Below, in pieces: positions 4,003-59,935 of a stretch of 64,000 nt of DNA. A program made the translations under genes and the position numbers. Position 1 is the first letter of the stretch. Each line of letters starts with the position of its first letter. Under the pieces are notes generated by a model. It worked only from the letters and a program-made list of their open reading frames with translations. It did not search any database and was not told where the DNA came from. This DNA is from Flavobacteriales bacterium (GTDB taxonomy: Bacteria; Bacteroidota; Bacteroidia; Flavobacteriales; Flavobacteriaceae), in NCBI GenBank assembly GCA_011525015.1, contig WTJC01000036.1, positions 1 to 64,000 of the forward strand, given 5' to 3'.

Positions 4003-5328
4003 ATGGCTTTAATAGGTGATAAAGAATATTTTAAAGGAATAAATGAAATCAAATACGAGGGAAGAGATTCAGATAATCCCTTGGCTTATAAATACTACGA
4101 TCCAGATCGAATCGTTGCGGGTAAAACCCTTCGAGAGCATTTTAAATTTGCCGTAGCTTATTGGCATTCGTTCTGCGGAACCGGAGCTGATCCTTTTGGC
4201 CCAGGAACTCAAATTTATGAGTGGGATGCTCCATCTGATCCTATTCAGGCGGCAAAAGAAAAGGCAGATGCGGCCTTTGAATTTATTACCAAACTCGGAT
4301 TTGATTACTTCTGTTTCCACGATTATGATTTGATAAGAGAGGGTTCAAATTGGAGTGAATCTGAGTCGAGATTAACGAGTATTGTGGATTACATCAACCA
4401 GAAAAAGAAGGCTTCTGGTGTTAAGGTGTTGTGGGGTACTGCAAATTGTTTTTCGAATCCACGATACATGAACGGTGCTGCTACGAATCCAGATTTTAAT
4501 GTAGTGGCCAATGCCGGAGCTCAAGTCAAATTAGCCTTGGATGCTACAATGGCTTTAGGTGGTGAAAATTATGTTTTCTGGGGTGGTCGTGAAGGCTATA
4601 TGTCGCTGCTCAATACAGACATCAAAAGAGAACTAGACCATATGGCACAGTTTTTAGCTATGGCAAGAGATTACGCCAGAGGTCAAGGCTTTAAAGGAAC
4701 CTTTTTTATCGAACCCAAACCAATGGAGCCAATGAAGCATCAATACGATTTTGATGCAGCTACGGTTATTGGGTTTTTAAATCAGTACGGATTGGCCGAT
4801 GATTTTAAAATTAATTTGGAATTTAATCACGCCACCCTTGCGAGTCACACCATGCAACACGAGATGGCTGTAGCCGGATCTAATGGTATGCTCGGGAGTA
4901 TCGATGCAAACCGCGGTGACTATCAAAACGGTTGGGATACCGATCAATTTCCGAATAATCTCGTTGAGGTAACAGAAGCCATGCTTGTCTTTTTACAATA
5001 CGGAGGCCTTCAAGGTGGTGGAATCAATTTTGATGCTAAAATTCGCAGGAATTCAACAGACCAAAAGGATATCTTTTATGCGCATATTGGAGGGGTAGAT
5101 ACCTTTGCGCGAAGTATTATTGCTGCTGATAAAATCATTTCTTCTTCGGAGTATCAAAAATTAAGAGATGAGCGTTATCATTCGTTTGACAGTGCTTCTG
5201 GAAAAGATTTTGAACAAGGGCGATTGCAACTTAAAGATTTGTTTGATATCGCGGCACGAAATGGTGAGCCCAAACGAATCTCAGGTCGTCAAGAGTACTT
5301 CGAAAATATTGTAAACCAATATATTTAA
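4003..5328 (+). CDS. xylA: Xylose isomerase
   Basis: The protein has 441 residues, the size of class II xylose isomerases. Conserved elements are the catalytic histidine H106 in FCFHDYD and the metal-binding FIEPKPMEP (E237), then [13 protein letters not shown]-like and [17 protein letters not shown] segments that hold the remaining metal ligands. It interconverts D-xylose and D-xylulose with Mg2+, Mn2+ or Co2+. It is last in the operon after xylB. Its stop codon overlaps the stop of the convergent Nudix regulator by 4 bp, so there is no room for a terminator between them. No xylose transporter lies next to it in this window. Confidence 0.96.
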
Positions 5329-6038
5329 ACAGGTTTAAAACTATATAGGTAAGGTGCTTTGTGTGCTTTGCCTGTGTATTTTTTTTCGTGTCGAACCAAG
5401 ATATCTTTAGCCAAGATTTTTCGTTGAAACGCAGTTCTGACCAATTTTTTTTGAAGAATACTCTCGTAGACGTTTTGAAGGTCTTTCATGGTGAATTTTT
5501 CTGGCAATAAATTCATGCCCACCAATTTTTCGTCTATGTTTTTTTGAAGTACTTCTAGAGCTTTTGATACCATTTCTTTGTGGTCTAGCATTAGTTCAGG
5601 CAATTCATCAAGACCGTACCATCCAACTGAATCAGAGAGTTCATCGGGTTCAAGGCTTACATCTTCAAAATTGATTAATGCATAGTAACAAACGCTTATA
5701 AAGCGGCCTAAGAGCCAATGGTCATCTTTGATTTGATGGTCGTGTACCTCGCAAATGTCTTTTAGTACTTTTTTATCTCTTCTGTTTTGGTGTCCAAACG
5801 TATGGCATTGCTCTAATTGAATGTCACTTATTCCTGTTCGGTTTTGAACGCCCTGGTAAACGGCTTCATCTAAATTTTGATTGTGTCGAACAAATCCACC
5901 AGGTAAGGCAAAGTGATTGGTTTTTTGGTATTCCAAAATCACAATTTTCAATTCAGTACCATTGAACCCAAAAATGACAGCGTCATAGGCCAGATGTGGA
6001 ATGAAATCCTCTTTTTTGGGAAGTACTATTTTTTTCAT
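5325..6038 (-). CDS. Nudix-fold transcriptional regulator (NrtR/AraR-like) with degenerate catalytic box
   Basis: The protein has 237 aa. Residues 10-150 look like a Nudix domain ([16 protein letters not shown]) and residues 165-237 like a winged helix-turn-helix. This is the architecture of NrtR-type regulators and of the arabinose regulator AraR of Bacteroides. In the Nudix box the catalytic positions are lost: Q54 for Glu, Q62 and G63 for Arg-Glu, N66 and R67 for Glu-Glu. It should therefore bind a ligand without hydrolysing it. The surroundings (xylose isomerase and kinase, esterase, PUL) suggest a sugar or sugar-phosphate effector. A perfect inverted repeat at 6074-6096, between this gene and the divergent esterase, is its likely operator. 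Repressor or activator cannot be told from the sequence. Confidence 0.85.
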
Positions 6039-6073
6039 CGTCGTAAATATAAACTAATTCACATTTGTTGTAT

Positions 6074-6096
6074 TATTGTATCTAACCGATACAATA
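6074..6096. promoter_or_regulatory. Inverted repeat, candidate operator of the Nudix regulator
   Basis: TATTGTATC (6074-6082) and GATACAATA (6088-6096) are perfect 9-bp inverted arms separated by TAACC. The repeat sits in the 64-bp gap between the divergent Nudix-regulator and carboxylesterase genes and ends 6 bp before the esterase ATG. Size and symmetry fit a dimeric winged-helix repressor. I found no second copy upstream of xylB, of the 1385 gene or of susC. Confidence 0.65.
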
Positions 6097-6102
6097 GAAA
6101 AA

Positions 6103-7728
6103 ATGAAAAATATTTTTCTTGCCTTTTTCGCAGGAGTGCTGATAGCCAACGCACAAAATCCAAATGCTTTTGCCGTTCAGGTAGAAACAGATAAAGGTGT
6201 CATAGAAGGAAGTTATGATACCCACACGGGTGTACAAACCTATTTAGGAGTTCCTTTTGCTCAGCCGCCAGTTGGAGCATTGAGGTGGAAGGCACCTGTT
6301 GAAATGCAAAATTGGCAGGGTGTCAAAGAAACCAAAAAATTTGGACCTCGACCTATGCAGCCTTTAGTCTTTGGCGATATGAAATCCAGATCTGCTGGGG
6401 TAAGTGAAGACTGCCTTTATCTAAATATTTGGACCACCGCTGATCGAAATACCAAAAATTTACCCGTATTAGTTTATTTCTATGGGGGAGGTAATGTTGC
6501 AGGTGATGCATCTGAGTATCGCTATGATGGCGAGAGCATGTCCAAAAAAGGTATCGTTGTGGTTACTGTGAATTACCGCTTGAATGTATTTGGCTATTTG
6601 GCACATCCCGAACTCAGCGAAGAAGCCTCATATAAAGCCTCTGGGAATTATGGCTTGTTAGATCAGCTTCAAGCCTTAAAATGGGTAGGTCGAAATATAG
6701 CTCAATTTGGAGGTGACCCCGACAATGTGACCATTGCAGGTGAGTCTGCAGGTTCTATTTCTGTCAGTGCACAGATGGCTTCGCCCTTGAGTAAAGAATT
6801 CATAGATAAAGCGATAGGTGAGAGTGGTGCAGCCATTAATCCTACCATGACACCAGTGACCCTTGACCAAGCCGAAAAAGAAGGTGAGAAATTCTTAGCG
6901 CAATTCGAAATCAATTCAATTGAAGAATTGAGATCCTTGTCTACCAGAGCAATTTATGAGATGTATAAAGAATCTGGCCGTTTTGGTTTTCCCATGGTGG
7001 TGGATGGCTATTTTCTCCCAAAATCGTTAAATGATATCTTTAACGAAGGGAGTCAGGCTCAAATACCCCTCTTATTGGGGTGGAATTCTGCTGAAATCCC
7101 TGCGCAGGCGATGATGCAAGATCAAGAATTGACAGAATCGAATTTTAATAAAACCATAGAATTCTTGTATCCCGATGAACATCGAAAAGTTCAGAAACTC
7201 TATGCGCCAGATAAAAACGATCCTCGAGGAGTAGAACGCATGGCAACGCGCTTGGCATCAGATCGATTCATTGTTTACAGCTCGTATAAGTGGTATGACC
7301 TGCATCGCAAAAATAGTGATCAGCCTATTTATCGCTATTTGTACGCCAAGCACAGACCTCCGTTGAAAAATGCAAATTTAGTGGCAGGATTTGCCGGCGG
7401 AACAAGAGAGCGTTCCGAAGATGATACAGTACTAACGGAACCTATTGGAGCACCTCATGCGTGCGAAATTGAGTACGCCATGGGTAACTTGCATTTAGTT
7501 GATGACTATCAGTGGACGGCCGAGGACTTTGTGGTGTCAGAGACCTTTCAAAATTACTTTGCTAATTTTATTAAAACCGGAGATCCAAATGCTGAGGGAA
7601 TGGCCATTTGGCCTAACGCCAATGTGAAGGGGAATCCTGAAGTGATGGTTATCAATACCCGAAGTGCAGCAGAAACTGCCGATAGCGATAAGCGGTTTAA
7701 ATTTTTAGATACTCAGTATGATCAATAA
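6103..7728 (+). CDS. Secreted type-B carboxylesterase
   Basis: A longer frame begins at a TTG at 6076, but the ATG at 6103 gives a proper signal peptide (MKNIFLAFFAGVLIANAQ) and leaves the operator outside the gene, so I use 6103 (541 aa). It is an alpha/beta-hydrolase of the carboxylesterase type-B family: YGGGN oxyanion region, the nucleophile Ser215 in GESAGS, probable acid Glu331 in NSAEIP, and His452 in GAPHACE. It should hydrolyse carboxylic esters in the periplasm, for example acetyl or feruloyl groups on a polysaccharide. It overlaps the DUF1593 gene by 11 bp and is probably co-transcribed with it. Confidence 0.9.
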   Translation: MKNIFLAFFAGVLIANAQNPNAFAVQVETDKGVIEGSYDTHTGVQTYLGVPFAQPPVGALRWKAPVEMQNWQGVKETKKFGPRPMQPLVFGDMKSRSAGVSEDCLYLNIWTTADRNTKNLPVLVYFYGGGNVAGDASEYRYDGESMSKKGIVVVTVNYRLNVFGYLAHPELSEEASYKASGNYGLLDQLQALKWVGRNIAQFGGDPDNVTIAGESAGSISVSAQMASPLSKEFIDKAIGESGAAINPTMTPVTLDQAEKEGEKFLAQFEINSIEELRSLSTRAIYEMYKESGRFGFPMVVDGYFLPKSLNDIFNEGSQAQIPLLLGWNSAEIPAQAMMQDQELTESNFNKTIEFLYPDEHRKVQKLYAPDKNDPRGVERMATRLASDRFIVYSSYKWYDLHRKNSDQPIYRYLYAKHRPPLKNANLVAGFAGGTRERSEDDTVLTEPIGAPHACEIEYAMGNLHLVDDYQWTAEDFVVSETFQNYFANFIKTGDPNAEGMAIWPNANVKGNPEVMVINTRSAAETADSDKRFKFLDTQYDQ

Positions 7729-9253
7729 ATTAAAATGTTTCTTTTTTGTTAGCATCTTTTTCATGCTCTCATGTGAAACAACTCCAGAGTCGACACAAGT
7801 TAAGAGTCAAAAGATTTTAGCGAGAACTATTATTACCACAGACGGAGAAATTGATGATATAGATTCATTTATACGCCTTTTACTATACGCTAATGAAATG
7901 TCTATAGAGGGCTTGGTTTACAGCAGCAGTCAATGGCATTACAAGGGAGACGGATTAGGTACTTCGTTTACTTCAGAAATGCAAATGACCAAAGAGCTTT
8001 ATGGGTCGAGAACTTCTTTGAGGTGGCCTGGAACGAATTGGATGCAAGATCTAATTTCAGCCTATGCTGAGGTTTATGACAATTTAAAAGTTCACGATTC
8101 AAATTATCCCCATCCTGATGAATTGCGCAATCAGATTTATGTAGGTAATATCGATTTTGAGGGAGAAATGAGCAAAGATACCGAGGGTTCTAATTTTATT
8201 AAGGCTAAACTCTTAGATGATGATAGGTCTCCACTTTATTTACAAGTTTGGGGAGGAACCAATACCATCGCTCGAGCCTTGAAATCTATCGAAGACGAGT
8301 TTTGGGGAACCTCTGCTTGGAATGAGGTCTATCAAAAAGTGACAGAGAAGGCCGTCATATATGCGATTCTAGATCAAGATGCTACCTATAAAAATTACAT
8401 CTCCAAAAAATGGCCAGATGTGAAAGTCTATTACAATAGCAATCAGTTTTGGAGTTTTGCTTATTTCTGGAAGCGTGTTGTTCCAGAAGATTATCAGTCG
8501 TATTTAAAGGCAGAATTTATGTCTGATCTGATTAATAATCACGGTCCATTACTAAAGAAATATTACAGCTATGGCGATGGGCAAAAACAAGAAGGAGATC
8601 CTGAGCACATACACGGTGATCCAAATCGATTGGTCAATGCGCAATGGGGAACTTTCGAGCCCTATGATTTTATCTCTGAAGGAGATTCTCCTGCTTTCTT
8701 GCATTTGGTTGATGTAGGACTTAAAAACCTAGAACACCCTGAATACGGTGGCTGGGGAGGTCGCTTGGTCCAATTGGATAGTACGCTTCCTTTCTGGTCT
8801 GATGGAGAACACATCTCAGAGTACAATCCATTTACAAAGACCATGGATTTGAGTTATGCACAAACACGATGGATTCCTGCAATTCAAAATGATTTTGCGG
8901 CAAGAGCGGATTGGTGTATTTCAGATTACAGCAGTGCCAATCACGCTCCGAGTTTTAAATTGGCAAAAACAAAAATTAAAGTGAGACCTTCGGAACAAAA
9001 TCAAATTGAATTAAAATACACGGTAGATGATCCTGACGCTGATCAGTGGAATATGTCTCACTTTTTTTATGATGAATTAAGTGAAGAAAAGATGTCAAAT
9101 TATCCAAAAGTATCCATTGAAAATGATCAAATTACTCTATCGGATTTTGACCCTGAAACCAAAGCTGGTATTTATCACTTAATTTTTGAGGTAAAAGATA
9201 GAGGTAGTCCACCTTTAAGCTCCTATCAACGCTTGCTTATTGAACTTGAATAA
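7718..9253 (+). CDS. DUF1593 nucleoside-hydrolase-like lipoprotein
   Basis: The protein has 511 aa. The N-terminus is a lipoprotein signal with lipobox FMLSC. Residues 34-330 resemble the DUF1593 domain, which has a nucleoside-hydrolase-like fold. The motif TTDGEIDDIDS contains D42, D46 and D47, matching the calcium-binding DxxxDD of nucleoside hydrolases. The C-terminal part (about residues 410-511) is a beta-rich domain like the C-terminal domain of the cellulose-binding protein Sde182. True nucleoside hydrolases cleave N-ribosides; the substrate of this secreted family is not known to me. Its place between an esterase and susC suggests that it acts on a sugar linkage. It overlaps the esterase gene by 11 bp. 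Confidence 0.85.
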   Translation: MINKLKCFFFVSIFFMLSCETTPESTQVKSQKILARTIITTDGEIDDIDSFIRLLLYANEMSIEGLVYSSSQWHYKGDGLGTSFTSEMQMTKELYGSRTSLRWPGTNWMQDLISAYAEVYDNLKVHDSNYPHPDELRNQIYVGNIDFEGEMSKDTEGSNFIKAKLLDDDRSPLYLQVWGGTNTIARALKSIEDEFWGTSAWNEVYQKVTEKAVIYAILDQDATYKNYISKKWPDVKVYYNSNQFWSFAYFWKRVVPEDYQSYLKAEFMSDLINNHGPLLKKYYSYGDGQKQEGDPEHIHGDPNRLVNAQWGTFEPYDFISEGDSPAFLHLVDVGLKNLEHPEYGGWGGRLVQLDSTLPFWSDGEHISEYNPFTKTMDLSYAQTRWIPAIQNDFAARADWCISDYSSANHAPSFKLAKTKIKVRPSEQNQIELKYTVDDPDADQWNMSHFFYDELSEEKMSNYPKVSIENDQITLSDFDPETKAGIYHLIFEVKDRGSPPLSSYQRLLIELE

Positions 9254-9581
9254 GCATCGATTTTTTGGCTCGAAAATCACAGAAAAAAAAGTAGCGTACT
9301 ATTTTATCAAAAAATGAAAAAATAATTGAATTTAGTCTTTTGATGTGATGGCGTCATTCTTTTTTTAAAATGTAAAATACTTAAAATCAATAGTTTGTAT
9401 TCATTCTGATTAAAGTGTCTCTAAAGGCTTAAGTAGTGTAATATTTTTACAAATGACCTCCTTTCATGTATAATGTTGTGAAATCCTTAACAAAATTTTC
9501 TATTCAAGAATCATTTTGTTATACTTGTTGTTATATGCCTTTATCGAAAAAGGCTTAACTAACTATTAATTCAAACAAATT
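9254..9581 (+). promoter_or_regulatory. susC leader region: repeats, a hairpin and a candidate promoter
   Basis: This 328-bp AT-rich stretch is the only gap over 300 bp, and I see no gene in it. Near susC it holds a direct repeat AAAGGCTTAA (9423-9432 and 9549-9558) and a small hairpin GCCTTT/AAAGGC (9537-9542 and 9549-9554, loop ATCGAA). It also has a tandem TTGTTATA (9516-9523 and 9528-9535) and ACTAACTA at 9558-9565. TATACTTG at 9520-9527 is one base from the -7 box TAnnTTTG; the -33 region is poor. The long leader suggests regulated expression of the transporter genes. Confidence 0.45.
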
Positions 9582-12500
9582 ATGAACCGACACAGAATTT
9601 TGATTTTGAGTAAGAAGAGTGTTCAGTCAGCATTGACGAGTCTCTTTTTATTGATGTTCGTCTTTGGTACGAGTGCCTATTCATGGGCCAACTCCAACCC
9701 AGAGATTAAGAATGACACAGGTTTAAGTCCTGTACAAATGACCGTTTCAGGTACAGTAACAGATTCAGCTGGTGAACCATTACCAGGTGCAAACGTTATC
9801 GTGCAAGGAACCACAAACGGAACCCAAACTGATTTCGATGGTAATTATTCCATCAATGCTGCATCTGATGCCGTACTTGTTGTTTCTTACTTAGGTTTCC
9901 AAACCCAAGAAGTTTCAGTAAACGGTAGATCTTCAATTGATGTAATGTTAGCTGAAGATGCTTCTGCACTTGAAGAAGTTATTGTTACGGGTTACCAAAC
10001 ATTTACTAAAAAGGAGTCTACGGCTGCGGTATCTGTTGTACAAGCAGATGAATTAGCGGGAATTCCTTCTGGTAACATTGAGCAGCAATTACAAGGACGT
10101 GTTCCTGGGGTTACTGTAATCACAAACGGACAGCCTGGTACAACATCTCAGGTTCGTGTACGTGGTTTCAACGCCTTCGGTGGAAACAGTCCATTATACA
10201 TTGTTGATGGGGTACCAACACAAGACATTTCTTTTATCAATCCAGATGACATCGCGACAGCAACAGTACTTAAAGATGCGGCTTCTGCTTCTATCTATGG
10301 TGCAAGAGCGGCGAATGGTGTAATTGTTTATACCACTAAATCAGGATCTAAAACGAAAAGAGAAACAAGTATTTCACTTAATGTATCTACAGGATTCACT
10401 GATCCAAACGTAAACGGATCTATTGAAATGTTAAATCCAACAGATATGGCGCGTTACACGCACATCGCATACGAAAATAATGCGGCGGCAAATGGAACGC
10501 CAGTAGCCTATACCCACCCACAGTATGGATCGGCTGCTACACCTGTTCTTCCAGATTACTTATTTGCAACTGGAGTAGGATCAGCAAACATTTCTCAAGC
10601 TCAAGTAGATGCTAACTTTACAGCGATTCAAGCAGCTTACGACGCAGATCCTTTAAATACGTTCTTAATTCGCTCAAACAAAGAAGGTACTAATTGGTAT
10701 GATGAGATTACCAGACAAGCACCTGTTCGAAGAGTAACATTAGGTTTTGACGGTGGTAATGAAAATTCTCGTTTCTACATCGGATTATCTGGACAAGACC
10801 AAAGCGGTATTGTTTTAGGTCAAGAATTCCAGCGTTTCGCACTCCGTGTGAACTCTGAGTTTGACGTTACTCCTTGGTTAACAATCGGTGAAAATTTCCA
10901 AACTACATATCGTTCTGCTGTAGGTATCTTCGGTGGAGGTGGTGGAGTAGAAGTTGCTGATGATGAATCAGAAGTTCTTTCTGCATATAGAATGCCAACT
11001 ATTATTCCTGTATTTGATGAATTTGGAAGTTATGCTTCTACCAAAGCAGCTGGTTTTAACAACCCACGTAACCCAGTACGTCGTTTAGTAAACAATCAAG
11101 GAAGCGATAAGAACTATAGCATTGGAGGATTTGGTAACCTTTATGCTACTATCAAGCCAATCGAAGGTCTTACCTTGAGAACAAGCTTAGGTGGACAGTT
11201 CAGTAACTATCACTATGTAGACTATGGTTTCAGATATTTTGGAGATTCAGAGCCACAGGCGTCTGATAACTTCGGTGAAGGAAGTGGATACTCGTATGCA
11301 TGGACATTCACTAACACTGCAGAATATCAAAGAGATTTCGGTAAGCACGGTCTTAGAGTACTTGGAGGTATTGAAGCCTTAAATACTGGAGCTGGTAGAA
11401 ATATCAACGGTTCGGGTATCAATCCATTCTCTACAGATTTAGACTTCCAGTCTTTAAGTGTAGTACAATCACCAGTTGTAAACTCAAACTTATTCAAAGG
11501 AGTTAATTTCTTCTCAGTATTCGGTAAGCTTGATTACAACTACGATGAGAAATACTTAGTAACTGGTATCCTTCGTCGTGACGGATCTTCAAGATTCGGT
11601 GCCAATTCAAGATACGGGGTATTCCCAGCGGTATCTGGTGCATGGAGAATTTCTAATGAAGATTTCATGTCGAACAACGATAATATCAACGAACTTGTTG
11701 TTAGAGCAGGTTGGGGTGAGATGGGTAACTCTGAAAACGTAGACCCTAACAACCAGTACTCTCTTTACAACGCAAATAGAGGAAGAACATTCTATCCAAT
11801 TGGAGGTCAGAACTCTGGAGCAGACGAAGGTTTTGCTGCAAGTAGAATTGGTAACCCTGATGCAAAATGGGAGACTTCTACAACAGTTAACATCGGTTTT
11901 GATTTAGGATTATGGAATGATAAACTTAGATTAGAATTAGACTGGTGGGATAAGACTACTGATGACTTATTATACACTGTACCTCTAGCAGCTGTTACTG
12001 GTAACTACGCTGCTGCTCCATCTGTAAATATCGCAAGTATGGCTAATACGGGTCTTGACTTTGCGATCTCAACACGAGGAGATATCGGTGATAAAATGCA
12101 GTTTAACTTAGTAATGAATAACGCGTTCTTGAGTAATGAGATTACAGCTCTTGCTCCTGGTATTGATTTCTTCGATACAGGTAGCTATAGAGGTATTCAG
12201 CCAGTTCGTAACGCAGTTGGACAGTCTATTTCTTCTTTCTTTGGATACGAAGTAATTGGATACTTTAACTCTCAGGCTGAGGTTGATTCAGCACCTGCTC
12301 AGGTAGGAGCTGGTATCGGTAGATTCCGTTATGCTGATGTAAACGGAGACGGTGCAATTACTCCAGATGATAGAACATTCATTGGAAGTCCAGTTCCAGA
12401 TTACACGGGAGGTTTAACCTTTGACTTGTACGCTGGAAACTTTGAAATGACAATGATGTGGTACTGGTCAATTGGTAATGATATCTTCAACCAAAGAAAG

Positions 12501-14676: not shown

Positions 14677-14707
14677 AAAGCTGCCTAGATTTAGGCAGCT
14701 TTTTTTA
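14677..14707 (+). terminator. Rho-independent terminator after susD
   Basis: An 11-bp stem (AAAGCTGCCTA, 14677-14687) pairs with TAGGCAGCTTT around a GATT loop and runs into seven T residues. It ends 26 bp before the next gene of the locus, so it should limit read-through from susCD into the FG-GAP and rhamnosidase genes. Confidence 0.9.
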
Positions 14708-23564: not shown

Positions 23565-23594
23565 AAAAAAAAACTCCGACATAAGTCGGAGTTT
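23565..23594 (-). terminator. Rho-independent terminator after rpoD
   Basis: On the minus strand, AAACTCCGAC pairs with GTCGGAGTTT (stem 10, loop of four) and is followed by a T-tract (plus-strand A-run 23565-23573). A 14-bp palindrome ACAGTTATAACTGT (23616-23629) lies between it and the rpoD stop. Confidence 0.85.
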
Positions 23595-26973: not shown

Positions 26974-27243
26974 TTATTTTCGAATACCGAGCTCTTTGAT
27001 TAGCTCACGATATTTTTGAATGTCTTTGTTTTTCAAATAGTCTAACAGCGCTCTTCGCTTTCCTACCAGTTTAACAAGAGATCTCTCTGTATTAAAATCC
27101 TTGTGATTTTTTTTAAGATGTTCTGTTAAATGGTTAATTCTGAAAGTGAATAAGGCGATTTGACCTTCTGTAGATCCAGTGTTACCTGCATCTCCACCGA
27201 AATTTGAAAATATTTCGCGTTTTTTGTCTTTAGATAAATACAT
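26974..27243 (-). CDS. rpsO: 30S ribosomal protein S15
   Basis: The ATG at 27243 gives 89 aa, the usual length for S15. A longer frame to 27288 would only add residues with no family match. Conserved parts are TGSTEGQIALFTFRINHLTEHLKKN and LVGKRRALLDYLK, which bind 16S rRNA and the S6/S18 region in the platform of the small subunit. It has its own promoter (27297-27326) and terminator. Confidence 0.97.
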   Translation of the reverse strand: MYLSKDKKREIFSNFGGDAGNTGSTEGQIALFTFRINHLTEHLKKNHKDFNTERSLVKLVGKRRALLDYLKNKDIQKYRELIKELGIRK

Positions 27244-27296
27244 GCTAATATTATTTAAATGATTTTTATGTATTTCATTGATTATCAATGAGAGCG

Positions 27297-27326
27297 CAAA
27301 GGTAACACATTAATTCTAATCTGCAA
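27297..27326 (-). promoter_or_regulatory. rpsO promoter, exact Bacteroidota consensus
   Basis: Minus strand: TTG at 27326-27324, a 19-bp spacer, then TACCTTTG at 27304-27297, an exact TAnnTTTG. Transcription should begin about 45-50 bases before the rpsO ATG. The -33 element lies 5 bp from the accD stop. Confidence 0.8.
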
Positions 27327-57585: not shown

Positions 57586-59892
57586 ATGAAAAAAAGTCTT
57601 TTAATACTCACAGCTCTAGGTTTGCTATTTAATATCAATCTTCAAGCACAAGAAGAAGGTCAAGTAGAACGTAAGCCAGGACACTACAATCAGAGTAAGT
57701 TTAAACAATTATACGAGGAGTTTTCTTCGCCGAATACGTACAGATCAGCCTCAGGTGCTCCTGGGCCCGATTACTATCAGCAGCAGGCCGATTACGATAT
57801 GAAGATTACCCTTGACGACAAAAATGCACGTATCTATGGAGAAGAGACTATTACCTATACCAATAACTCTCCTGATGCATTAGAATTCTTGTGGGTGCAA
57901 TTAGACCAGAACGTCAGAGCGGCAGATTCGAAGTCACCACTGAGAAACGGTAATGGAGTGAATATGGCCTACACTGCAGGCAATTTTGCACAAACCTATA
58001 TGACAGAGGCCTTTGATGGAGGATTTAATATTGACTACGTCAAAAATGCCAATGGAAAGCCACTTTCTTATACCATTAATCAAACGATGATGCGAATCAA
58101 TTTGCCTTCAGCATTGCAAAGTGGGGGGCAGGTTTCATTTTCTATAAAGTGGTGGTATAATATCCCAGATCACACCGTTAATCGCGCTAGATCTGGTTAT
58201 GAGTATTTTGCCAAGGATGGTAACCGTGCCTATGTGATTGCGCAGTTCTTCCCAAGAATGGCGGTATACAATGATGTTGAAGGATGGCAGAACCATCAGT
58301 TCTGGGGAAGCGGAGAATTTGCGCTGCCTTTTGGTAATTACACTGTTGAAATTACTGCTCCATCAGATCACGTTTTAGACGCAACAGGAGTTTTACAAAA
58401 CAGAAAAGACGTTTTTTCTAAAACGATGATGAAAAGATACAATCAGGCTAAGAAGTCTTATGATACTCCCGTAATGATTGTAACTCAAGAAGAAGCAGAA
58501 GAAGCAGAAAAAGGGTTTTCAGATAAAACCAAAACTTGGAAGTTTTACGCCGAGAATGTAAGAGATTTTGGATTTGCAAGTTCTCGTAAATTCATTTGGG
58601 ATATGATGGCCGTTAAAATTGGCAATAAAGACGTAATGGCCGTTTCGATGTATCCAAAAGAAGGAAACCCGCTTTGGGAAGAATGGTCTACAAAAGCAGT
58701 AGCTTCAACACTTATTTCTTATTCTGAGCACACTTTCGATTATCCTTATCACAAGGCCATCTCTGTACACGCTAAGAATCAAGGAATGGAATACCCGATG
58801 ATTTGTTGGAATTACGGACGCCCGAATGAAGACGGTTCATACTCAGATCGCACCAAATATGGAATGATGAGTGTCATCATTCACGAGGTGGGTCACAATT
58901 TCTTCCCTATGATTGTAAACTCCGATGAGCGACAGTGGGGCTGGATGGATGAAGGCCTAGATACCTTTATGCAATACATCGCAGAACAAGAATTTGGTCA
59001 GGCCTATCCTGACGCTATTGGCGAATTAGACAAATACCCTTCTCGAAGAGGAGAGCCTTCTAAGATTGTTCCTTATATGTCAGGTGATCAAGATTATATC
59101 GCTCCCATCATGTCTAATCCAGAAAACGTTTACAGCCTTGGGCCAAATGCCTACGGAAAACCAGCAACTGCACTCAATATCTTAAGAGAAACGGTAATGG
59201 GTAAAGAACTCTTTGATCACGCATTTAAAACCTATGCACAAAGATGGATGTTTAAACACCCTACTCCAGAGGACTTTTTTAGAACTATGGAAGATGCTTC
59301 AGCGGTTGATTTGGATTGGTTTTGGAGAGGATGGTTCTACACCACAGATTACGTTGATATCGGAGTCAAAGACGTTAAAAAATATTACGTTTCTTCAGAG
59401 CCTAGCGATCAGATGAAGGCTTATATGGCAGCACAAGGTATTACAGAGGCAGACCTTCCTCCTTTAGTTTATCTCGCCAGTGAGGATTCTCCAAATTTCT
59501 CTGAAGAATTAAAAGGAAAATCACCATCTGAATCTTCTAAGAGTTTAAACGAATTCATGCTTGATAATATGACTGCTGCAGAGCGTTCTGCAGTAAAAGA
59601 GCCAAAGTATTTTTACGAGGTCACCTTTGACAAGCCAGGAGGAATTCCAATGCCTCTAATCGTTGAATACTCTTATGCTGACGGTTCAAAAGAACGCATC
59701 ACCTATCCGCCAGAGATATGGAGAAAGAACGATGCTGAGGTGAGAAGAGTTATTGCTTCTGAAAAAGAACTGACAGGTATTATCGTAGATCCACAGGCTG
59801 AAACTGCAGACATTGACACTACAAATAATGCATGGCCAAAAGAGGCTCCTAAGTCAGAATTTGACAGTTTAAGAGAAGAAATCAAAGGTTAA
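57586..59892 (+). CDS. M1-family metallopeptidase
   Basis: The 768-aa protein has a signal peptide (LLFNINLQAQ). The gluzincin zinc site is perfect: HEVGH at 433-437, then 18 residues, then E456 in WMDEG. The N-terminal part (YDMKITLDDKNARIYGEETITYTN) is the beta-saddle domain of M1 enzymes. The GxMEN exopeptidase motif is not obvious: GMEYPMICWNYG takes its place, so aminopeptidase activity is not certain. It is probably periplasmic or exported. It ends in a strong hairpin. Confidence 0.9.
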   Translation: MKKSLLILTALGLLFNINLQAQEEGQVERKPGHYNQSKFKQLYEEFSSPNTYRSASGAPGPDYYQQQADYDMKITLDDKNARIYGEETITYTNNSPDALEFLWVQLDQNVRAADSKSPLRNGNGVNMAYTAGNFAQTYMTEAFDGGFNIDYVKNANGKPLSYTINQTMMRINLPSALQSGGQVSFSIKWWYNIPDHTVNRARSGYEYFAKDGNRAYVIAQFFPRMAVYNDVEGWQNHQFWGSGEFALPFGNYTVEITAPSDHVLDATGVLQNRKDVFSKTMMKRYNQAKKSYDTPVMIVTQEEAEEAEKGFSDKTKTWKFYAENVRDFGFASSRKFIWDMMAVKIGNKDVMAVSMYPKEGNPLWEEWSTKAVASTLISYSEHTFDYPYHKAISVHAKNQGMEYPMICWNYGRPNEDGSYSDRTKYGMMSVIIHEVGHNFFPMIVNSDERQWGWMDEGLDTFMQYIAEQEFGQAYPDAIGELDKYPSRRGEPSKIVPYMSGDQDYIAPIMSNPENVYSLGPNAYGKPATALNILRETVMGKELFDHAFKTYAQRWMFKHPTPEDFFRTMEDASAVDLDWFWRGWFYTTDYVDIGVKDVKKYYVSSEPSDQMKAYMAAQGITEADLPPLVYLASEDSPNFSEELKGKSPSESSKSLNEFMLDNMTAAERSAVKEPKYFYEVTFDKPGGIPMPLIVEYSYADGSKERITYPPEIWRKNDAEVRRVIASEKELTGIIVDPQAETADIDTTNNAWPKEAPKSEFDSLREEIKG

Positions 59893-59900
59893 TACAATTT

Positions 59901-59935
59901 CCCATGACTGAAGTGCATTTCAGTCATGGGTTTCT
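59901..59935 (+). terminator. Terminator after the M1 peptidase gene
   Basis: CCCATGACTGAA (59901-59912) and TTCAGTCATGGG (59919-59930) are perfect 12-bp arms with a 6-base loop, followed by TTTCTTT. The ATG within the left arm is therefore not the tatA start. Confidence 0.85.

Follow-up and report, generated by a model that had tools for sequence, protein, structure and literature searches.

A conserved inverted repeat as the likely operator of an NrtR-family Nudix regulator associated with carboxylesterase genes in Flavobacteriaceae

In the stretch of flavobacterial DNA analysed here (64,000 nucleotides, referred to as the window), the genes for a Nudix-related regulator and a carboxylesterase diverge from a 64-bp intergenic gap that holds a perfect inverted repeat. 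This raises the question of whether the repeat is a DNA operator, which protein would read it, and which genes would be controlled through it.

The inverted repeat and its flanking genes

The repeat is composed of TATTGTATC (6074–6082), the spacer TAACC and GATACAATA (6088–6096), with core half-sites TATTGT and ACAATA and inner bases ATC and GAT. As a candidate operator (6074–6096, no strand assigned), it lies 6 nt (GAAAAA) ahead of the esterase ATG at 6103, and 35 nt separate it from the start codon of the regulator (6038, minus strand); the 9-5-9 architecture, spacer and distance to the esterase given in the original prediction proved exact. Since perfect repeats with 9-nt arms and loops of 3–8 nt are not unusual in the window (10 entries, or 6 distinct places after merging nested ones, compared to a mean of 3.2 entries per Markov shuffle, n = 15), symmetry alone is a weak argument, and it is conservation that settles whether the repeat matters. 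When only the 64-bp intergenic gap was shuffled, 0.4% of 20,000 shuffles contained a perfect 9-nt-arm repeat. The repeat is also the sole match in the window at up to three mismatches (at least one match occurred in 3 of 100 shuffles).

Elsewhere in the window, further perfect inverted repeats (arms of 9 nt or longer) are situated at 2452–2474, 14677–14702, 23571–23594, 58862–58882 and 59903–59928, and those close to gene ends may be terminators. An Rfam scan of the window returned only an S15-Flavobacteria ribosomal leader (RF03161, 71.4 bits) at 27241–27304, and a sigma-70 scan yielded no useful promoter at the repeat, with fewer matches than in shuffles (8 vs. 13.3).

The regulator (237 aa; 5325–6038, minus strand), i.e., the proposed binder of the operator, belongs to the NrtR family of Nudix-related transcriptional regulators, as indicated by homology, Pfam, a structural model and Foldseek. 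Its C-terminal NrtR winged-helix domain scores 66.8 bits with PF21906 (cut-off of 27). The Nudix profile PF00293 reaches 20.4 bits, slightly below its cut-off of 21.1, and the N-terminal Nudix fold was accepted on the basis of the AlphaFold2 model (pLDDT 84, pTM 0.67), which aligns with AraR and NrtR chains along almost its full length. AraR and NrtR also rank top in Foldseek (TM about 0.5, rmsd about 10, with uncertain domain placement), and the AraR_C profile PF19368 stays below its cut-off (20.6 vs. 23.8 bits). The Nudix catalytic motif REUXEE is impaired (QGVQNR in the window, mostly RGLKER-like in the printed relatives), and the degenerate Nudix domain is probably inactive. Typically for NrtR-family members, the sequence places a palindromic candidate operator near the regulator's own gene and its proposed targets. 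In its own genome, the regulator is the only match to itself (E of 0.01) and to the NrtR_WHD profile (E of 0.001).

On the other side of the repeat lies the proposed target, a type-B carboxylesterase with an N-terminal hydrophobic stretch (6103–7728, plus strand; COesterase PF00135, E of 2.7e-109). Although the list of open reading frames begins this gene at a TTG within the repeat, the ATG at 6103 is the better start because the hydrophobic leader begins there. The esterase stop is overlapped by a gene for an Sde182/nucleoside-hydrolase-like protein (7718–9253, plus strand), designated DUF1593 in the original prediction, and both genes probably share one transcription unit.

Conservation of the site with the regulator and with carboxylesterases

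At an E-value of 1e-20, four of the 11 genomes in the genus hold a match to the regulator (own genome included, and one match only 33% identical), and at 1e-55 matches occur in 25 of 397 genomes of the family and in 62 of 395 of the order, the latter being nearly all from another family and 41–48% identical. Named contigs were searched as well, with the best 80 matches kept. The original prediction would have been refuted by a lack of conservation in orthologous loci, and the element is in fact kept upstream of all 27 examined orthologous regulators (at least 54% protein identity; two loci, L014 and L015, that look like named records of L011 and L012 were counted once). In 24 of these promoters it is exact to TATTGTCTC-N8-ACAATA, and the remaining three, i.e., L101 and two congeners of the window's organism (the congeners having ATC), deviate by one mismatch. 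The orthologous regulators form a single clade (support 100/98), whose site-bearing members include metagenome-assembled genomes labelled Ferruginibacter (L019), Flammeovirgaceae (L018) and Sphingobacteriales (L017). Most relatives have an asymmetric site, with CTC on one side and GTAAC on the other, and perfectly symmetric versions were encountered in L019 and the window's genus.

At 42–48% identity, 34 loci (L020–L024 and L121–L149) lacked ATTGT-N10-12-ACAAT in the 220 bp upstream, as did L025, L033 and L042, the three loci tested from L025–L093. The footprint does not include these 42–48% relatives, which their tree position or title assigns to the Weeksellaceae in all but a few cases. In the congener G001 (L015), the regulator has no esterase or DUF1593 gene beside it, and the palindrome and SusC/SusD are retained, which suits either autoregulation or recent loss.

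Co-occurrence was scored in two sets of 20 family genomes each: one in which the regulator was matched at 1e-55 and one in which nothing reached that cut-off, the latter genomes being taken from lists (i.e., not at random) and some of them holding a paralogue (e.g., G042). The exact TATTGTCTC-N8-ACAATA was found in 19 of the 20 regulator-positive genomes versus none of the 20 regulator-negative ones. With one mismatch allowed, this contrast shrinks to 20/20 versus 9/20, which is near noise. Within the genus, exact TATTGTNTC-N8-ACAATA occurs in all three genomes with the regulator and in none of the eight without a close one. Since the genomes are related, such site counts are not independent.

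The 26 exact places in the 40 genomes comprise 19 regulator promoters, one second regulator copy (in G267) and six others (in G234, G355, G236, G390, G084 and G231). All six of the latter are situated upstream of carboxylesterase genes, about 10–70 nt from the predicted start, and the encoded enzymes share a cluster with the window esterase. As G236 and G390 belong to one genus, these amount to about five independent cases. Control of the esterase, as originally proposed, is thereby supported, and the predicted regulon extends beyond that proposal to other carboxylesterases. At three of these loci (L221–L223), a separate gene diverges on the far side of the site. Among eight one-mismatch places that were fetched, one precedes a carboxylesterase (L226), three lie ahead of other Nudix regulators (L228, L230 and L233) and four fall within genes (L227, L229, L231 and L232).

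DNA reading, promoter geometry and competing explanations

The nearest solved relative of the regulator is BtAraR (BT0354; PDB 5bs6, 5dd4, 5ddg and 5deq; phmmer E of 2.1e-27 and best Foldseek hits), a Bacteroides arabinose regulator of the NrtR family that likewise combines a Nudix with a winged-helix domain. Table 2 of its structural description (PMC4666351) places the half-site GTGT at positions –7 to –4 from the dyad of the BtAraR–DNA crystal. At the same offsets the window site reads GTAT, and its relatives GTCT on one side, so that the register G(–7) T(–6) N(–5) T(–4) agrees on both sides. The degenerate Nudix box and the length of the operator core are shared as well. In contrast, the recognition helix of BtAraR (D178-K179-R180-N181) corresponds to V-R-T-A in the window regulator, which thus lacks the DNA-intercalating Arg180, and no aligned counterpart was found for the ligand residue Arg34. 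Moreover, Lys179, Arg180, Asn181, Lys184, Lys204 and Arg205, described in PMC4666351 as absolutely conserved among AraR orthologues, align with R, T, A, R, H and K (numbering via an inferred 3-residue offset). The two regulators also differ in that carboxylesterases are the proposed targets of the window regulator.

According to the same description, Asp178 of BtAraR contacts the C paired with the third half-site base. In the alignment, regulators linked to GH3 genes and L013 have D or E at this position, and the esterase-linked regulators R, H, G or V. Of the rows that combine an acidic residue with a site, 7 of 8 show G at –5 in one half-site or both (L120 being the exception), compared to 0 of 26 for the others (p-value of 1.5e-6, which overstates independence since few clades are involved). 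This count dropped L101, the acidic row L119, the Weeksellaceae (without a printed site) and the window's congeners.

Two further family members invite comparison. BtXylR (BT0791) is listed in PMC3878776 as a predicted xylose regulator, and the adjacency of the regulator gene to xylBA in the window's genus recalls it; however, xylA was seen in just 3 of 35 loci, all from this genus (the window, L014 and L015), and the window shows no site ahead of xylBA. The ADP-ribose-responsive SoNrtR of Shewanella oneidensis (3gz5, 3gz6) has fold and family in common with the window regulator, but no NAD gene was found among the latter's neighbour clusters analysed with Pfam.

Paralogous Nudix regulators next to GH3 genes (L170, L171, L173–L175, L230 and L233) carry related palindromes, with TATTGTGT-N7-ACACAATA in the best cases and one half or none with GTGT in the others. 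In L170, L171 and L173–L175, the regulator starts at about position 9450–9700; L172 shows no palindrome. These paralogues probably represent a sister regulon with an AraR-like half-site.

The left half-site of the window repeat overlaps TATTATTG (6071–6078, plus strand), a putative –7 box of the esterase that agrees in 7 of 8 positions with TAnnTTTG, given as the Bacteroidetes –7 consensus in PMC2483708, and of which the first two bases (TA) fall outside the operator core. All 17 orthologous sites for which a divergent ORF was found within about 140 nt have this box with its TA, versus 3 of the 10 other sites (Fisher p-value of 1.4e-4). An operator over the –7 box and the probable start site is in a blocking position. 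No good –33 element was seen for the window esterase, nor a clear promoter for the window's regulator gene. In the direction of the regulator, 19 of the 27 promoters have TTG-N17-23-TnnnTTTG right after the operator (compared to 0.63 in shuffles), an element absent from the window's genus. This arrangement would put the operator near –50, which fits an activator, so that autoregulation could have either sign; autoregulation as such, which the original prediction had read from position and symmetry, is plausible.

Taken as a DNA operator of the adjacent regulator, which we consider likely from comparative sequence evidence, the repeat at 6074–6096 would be bound by a regulator dimer with one winged helix per TATTGT half-site and the dyad at 6085. 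The bound protein would block the esterase and the following gene via the likely –7 box and would also influence its own divergent gene, until a small ligand in the degenerate Nudix domain releases it. In the same genome, a second operator on another contig would head a unit with another carboxylesterase. Computation establishes the repeat itself, its conservation, its register and the fact that it accompanies both the regulator and carboxylesterases; binding, repression and a sugar-like effector are what we infer.

The repeat could instead form a hairpin in the esterase mRNA leader that acts as an attenuator or occludes the ribosome site, and the window leader indeed folds better than shuffles (z of –2.4, with a 9-bp hairpin), as does that of L105 (z of –2.6). 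However, the L016 leader folds little better than shuffles (z of –0.8). Of the three inner pairs, one is broken in 16 and another in 20 of the 22 distinct sequences compared, the six outer pairs vary in a single sequence, and covariation is on a par with that of shuffled columns (0.054 vs. 0.052). Moreover, no Rfam family coincides with the site, and in L221–L223 and L226 a promoter-like stretch is seen by eye downstream of it, which would leave the site untranscribed. Since the pairing is not conserved, the RNA hairpin was rejected and is considered highly improbable. It is also unlikely, if somewhat less so, that the site serves another transcription factor and neighbours the Nudix gene by chance. 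While an AraC-family-like gene (cluster C8) is a neighbour in 6 of 35 loci, such a reading must explain why regulator and site co-occur across genomes, why the site stays with the regulator in the 10 of 27 rows without a divergent ORF and recurs at the second regulator copy in G267, and why it has the register of the BtAraR operator. It must also account for the related palindromes, several with GTGT inside, at the GH3-adjacent paralogues. The tie to the Nudix regulator is thus strengthened.

With the Nudix regulator as the preferred reader of the site, the sign of its action can still be construed differently, i.e., as that of an activator, or of a protein that blocks where the site covers a –7 box and activates or tunes where it abuts a –33 box. 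The two architectures described above are in line with this, as are four extra esterase sites (L221–L223 and L226) with a similar promoter-downstream layout by eye. On the other hand, the promoters concerned are predicted ones, and BtAraR is described in PMC4666351 as bound to DNA in its ligand-free state and displaced by L-arabinose, which is repressor behaviour. We therefore regard activation, alone or depending on the promoter, as possible but doubtful.

The proposed regulon in the own genome and its meaning

A scan of the window with TATTGTNTC-N8-ACAATA revealed nothing besides 6074–6096 below three mismatches, in agreement with the earlier observation that the polysaccharide utilization locus holds no second copy. 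At 9300, ahead of susC, lies an A/T-rich match with three mismatches, which belongs to a group of about ten such matches and was not counted. Consequently, xylAB and susCD, without a site in the window, were rejected as targets. Outside the window, a genome-wide motif scan revealed more copies. The genome has two full-length COesterase genes, one in the window and one on contig C47, and sites head the transcription units of both. The C47 unit encodes an esterase-like hydrolase, a sodium:solute symporter and the carboxylesterase, and starts 30 nt from C47:114764–114786 (minus strand, TATTGTCTCAAATATAAACAATA), a site exact to the consensus derived from other genomes. On its other side lie genes for an aldolase/dehydrogenase, a TIM-barrel protein (with a RhaA match below the cut-off) and an FGGY kinase, a sugar catabolic operon that most likely serves L-rhamnose. 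The C47-type site recurs with one mismatch in G001, where the counterpart unit holds the hydrolase and symporter without a carboxylesterase, and with two mismatches in G002.

The full-length COesterase matches in nine regulator-bearing genomes number 21. According to the author's reading of the site lists, ten of them come right after a site or belong to a unit headed by one, one (on C62 of G002) follows the two-mismatch site, three are situated downstream of the regulator gene and in the same orientation, and one lies behind a sited esterase. The other six have no site nearby in whole-genome scans (three in G355 and one each in G084, G231 and G001); around the only COesterase of G001, 15 kb hold no site at up to two mismatches.

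Two further sites of the own genome precede regulator genes of other families. One of its three exact TATTGTNTC sites, TATTGTATCATTTTAATACAATA (G000:C55, 3973; L006 3973–3995, see also L251 6837; exact to TATTGTNTC-N8-ACAATA), precedes an HxlR gene instead of an esterase. Its arms are kept and its centre is changed in G002, and the site is degraded in G001. The HxlR gene is not claimed as a regulon member. A palindrome with one mismatch at C43:59207 (G000:C43; L007 5208–5230, see also L250 6504) precedes an AraC-like gene followed by genes for a GMC oxidoreductase, gluconate-dehydrogenase subunit 3 and a TIM-barrel protein. It is kept in G001, and G002 has no close copy of the AraC-like gene. 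This operon is not claimed either.

The literature found on the topic consists of papers on BtAraR, the B. thetaiotaomicron regulon, RegPrecise and Pseudomonas NrtR, and in the literature searched, i.e., that outside subscription journals and the RegPrecise database, no carboxylesterase regulon was described for the NrtR family. While the kind of system is known, the branch, consensus and targets appear to be new. Tentatively, and with much less confidence than in the operator itself, this branch can be pictured as sugar-sensor-type NrtR regulators in several Bacteroidota families that would mainly control carboxylesterases through one operator in two geometries, blocking at –7 and possibly activating at –33. 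The half-site would have shifted from GTGT to GTCT or GTAT via the residue at AraR position 178, with an R-to-V change in the window's genus accompanying the passage from the asymmetric CTC site to the perfect ATC palindrome.

The analysis thus offers a regulator–operator pair and a testable carboxylesterase regulon for a number of Flavobacteriaceae and a few Bacteroidota outside that family. Moreover, its natural series of recognition-helix and operator variants bears on the determinants of protein–DNA specificity, which the BtAraR paper (PMC4666351) leaves unsettled for this family.
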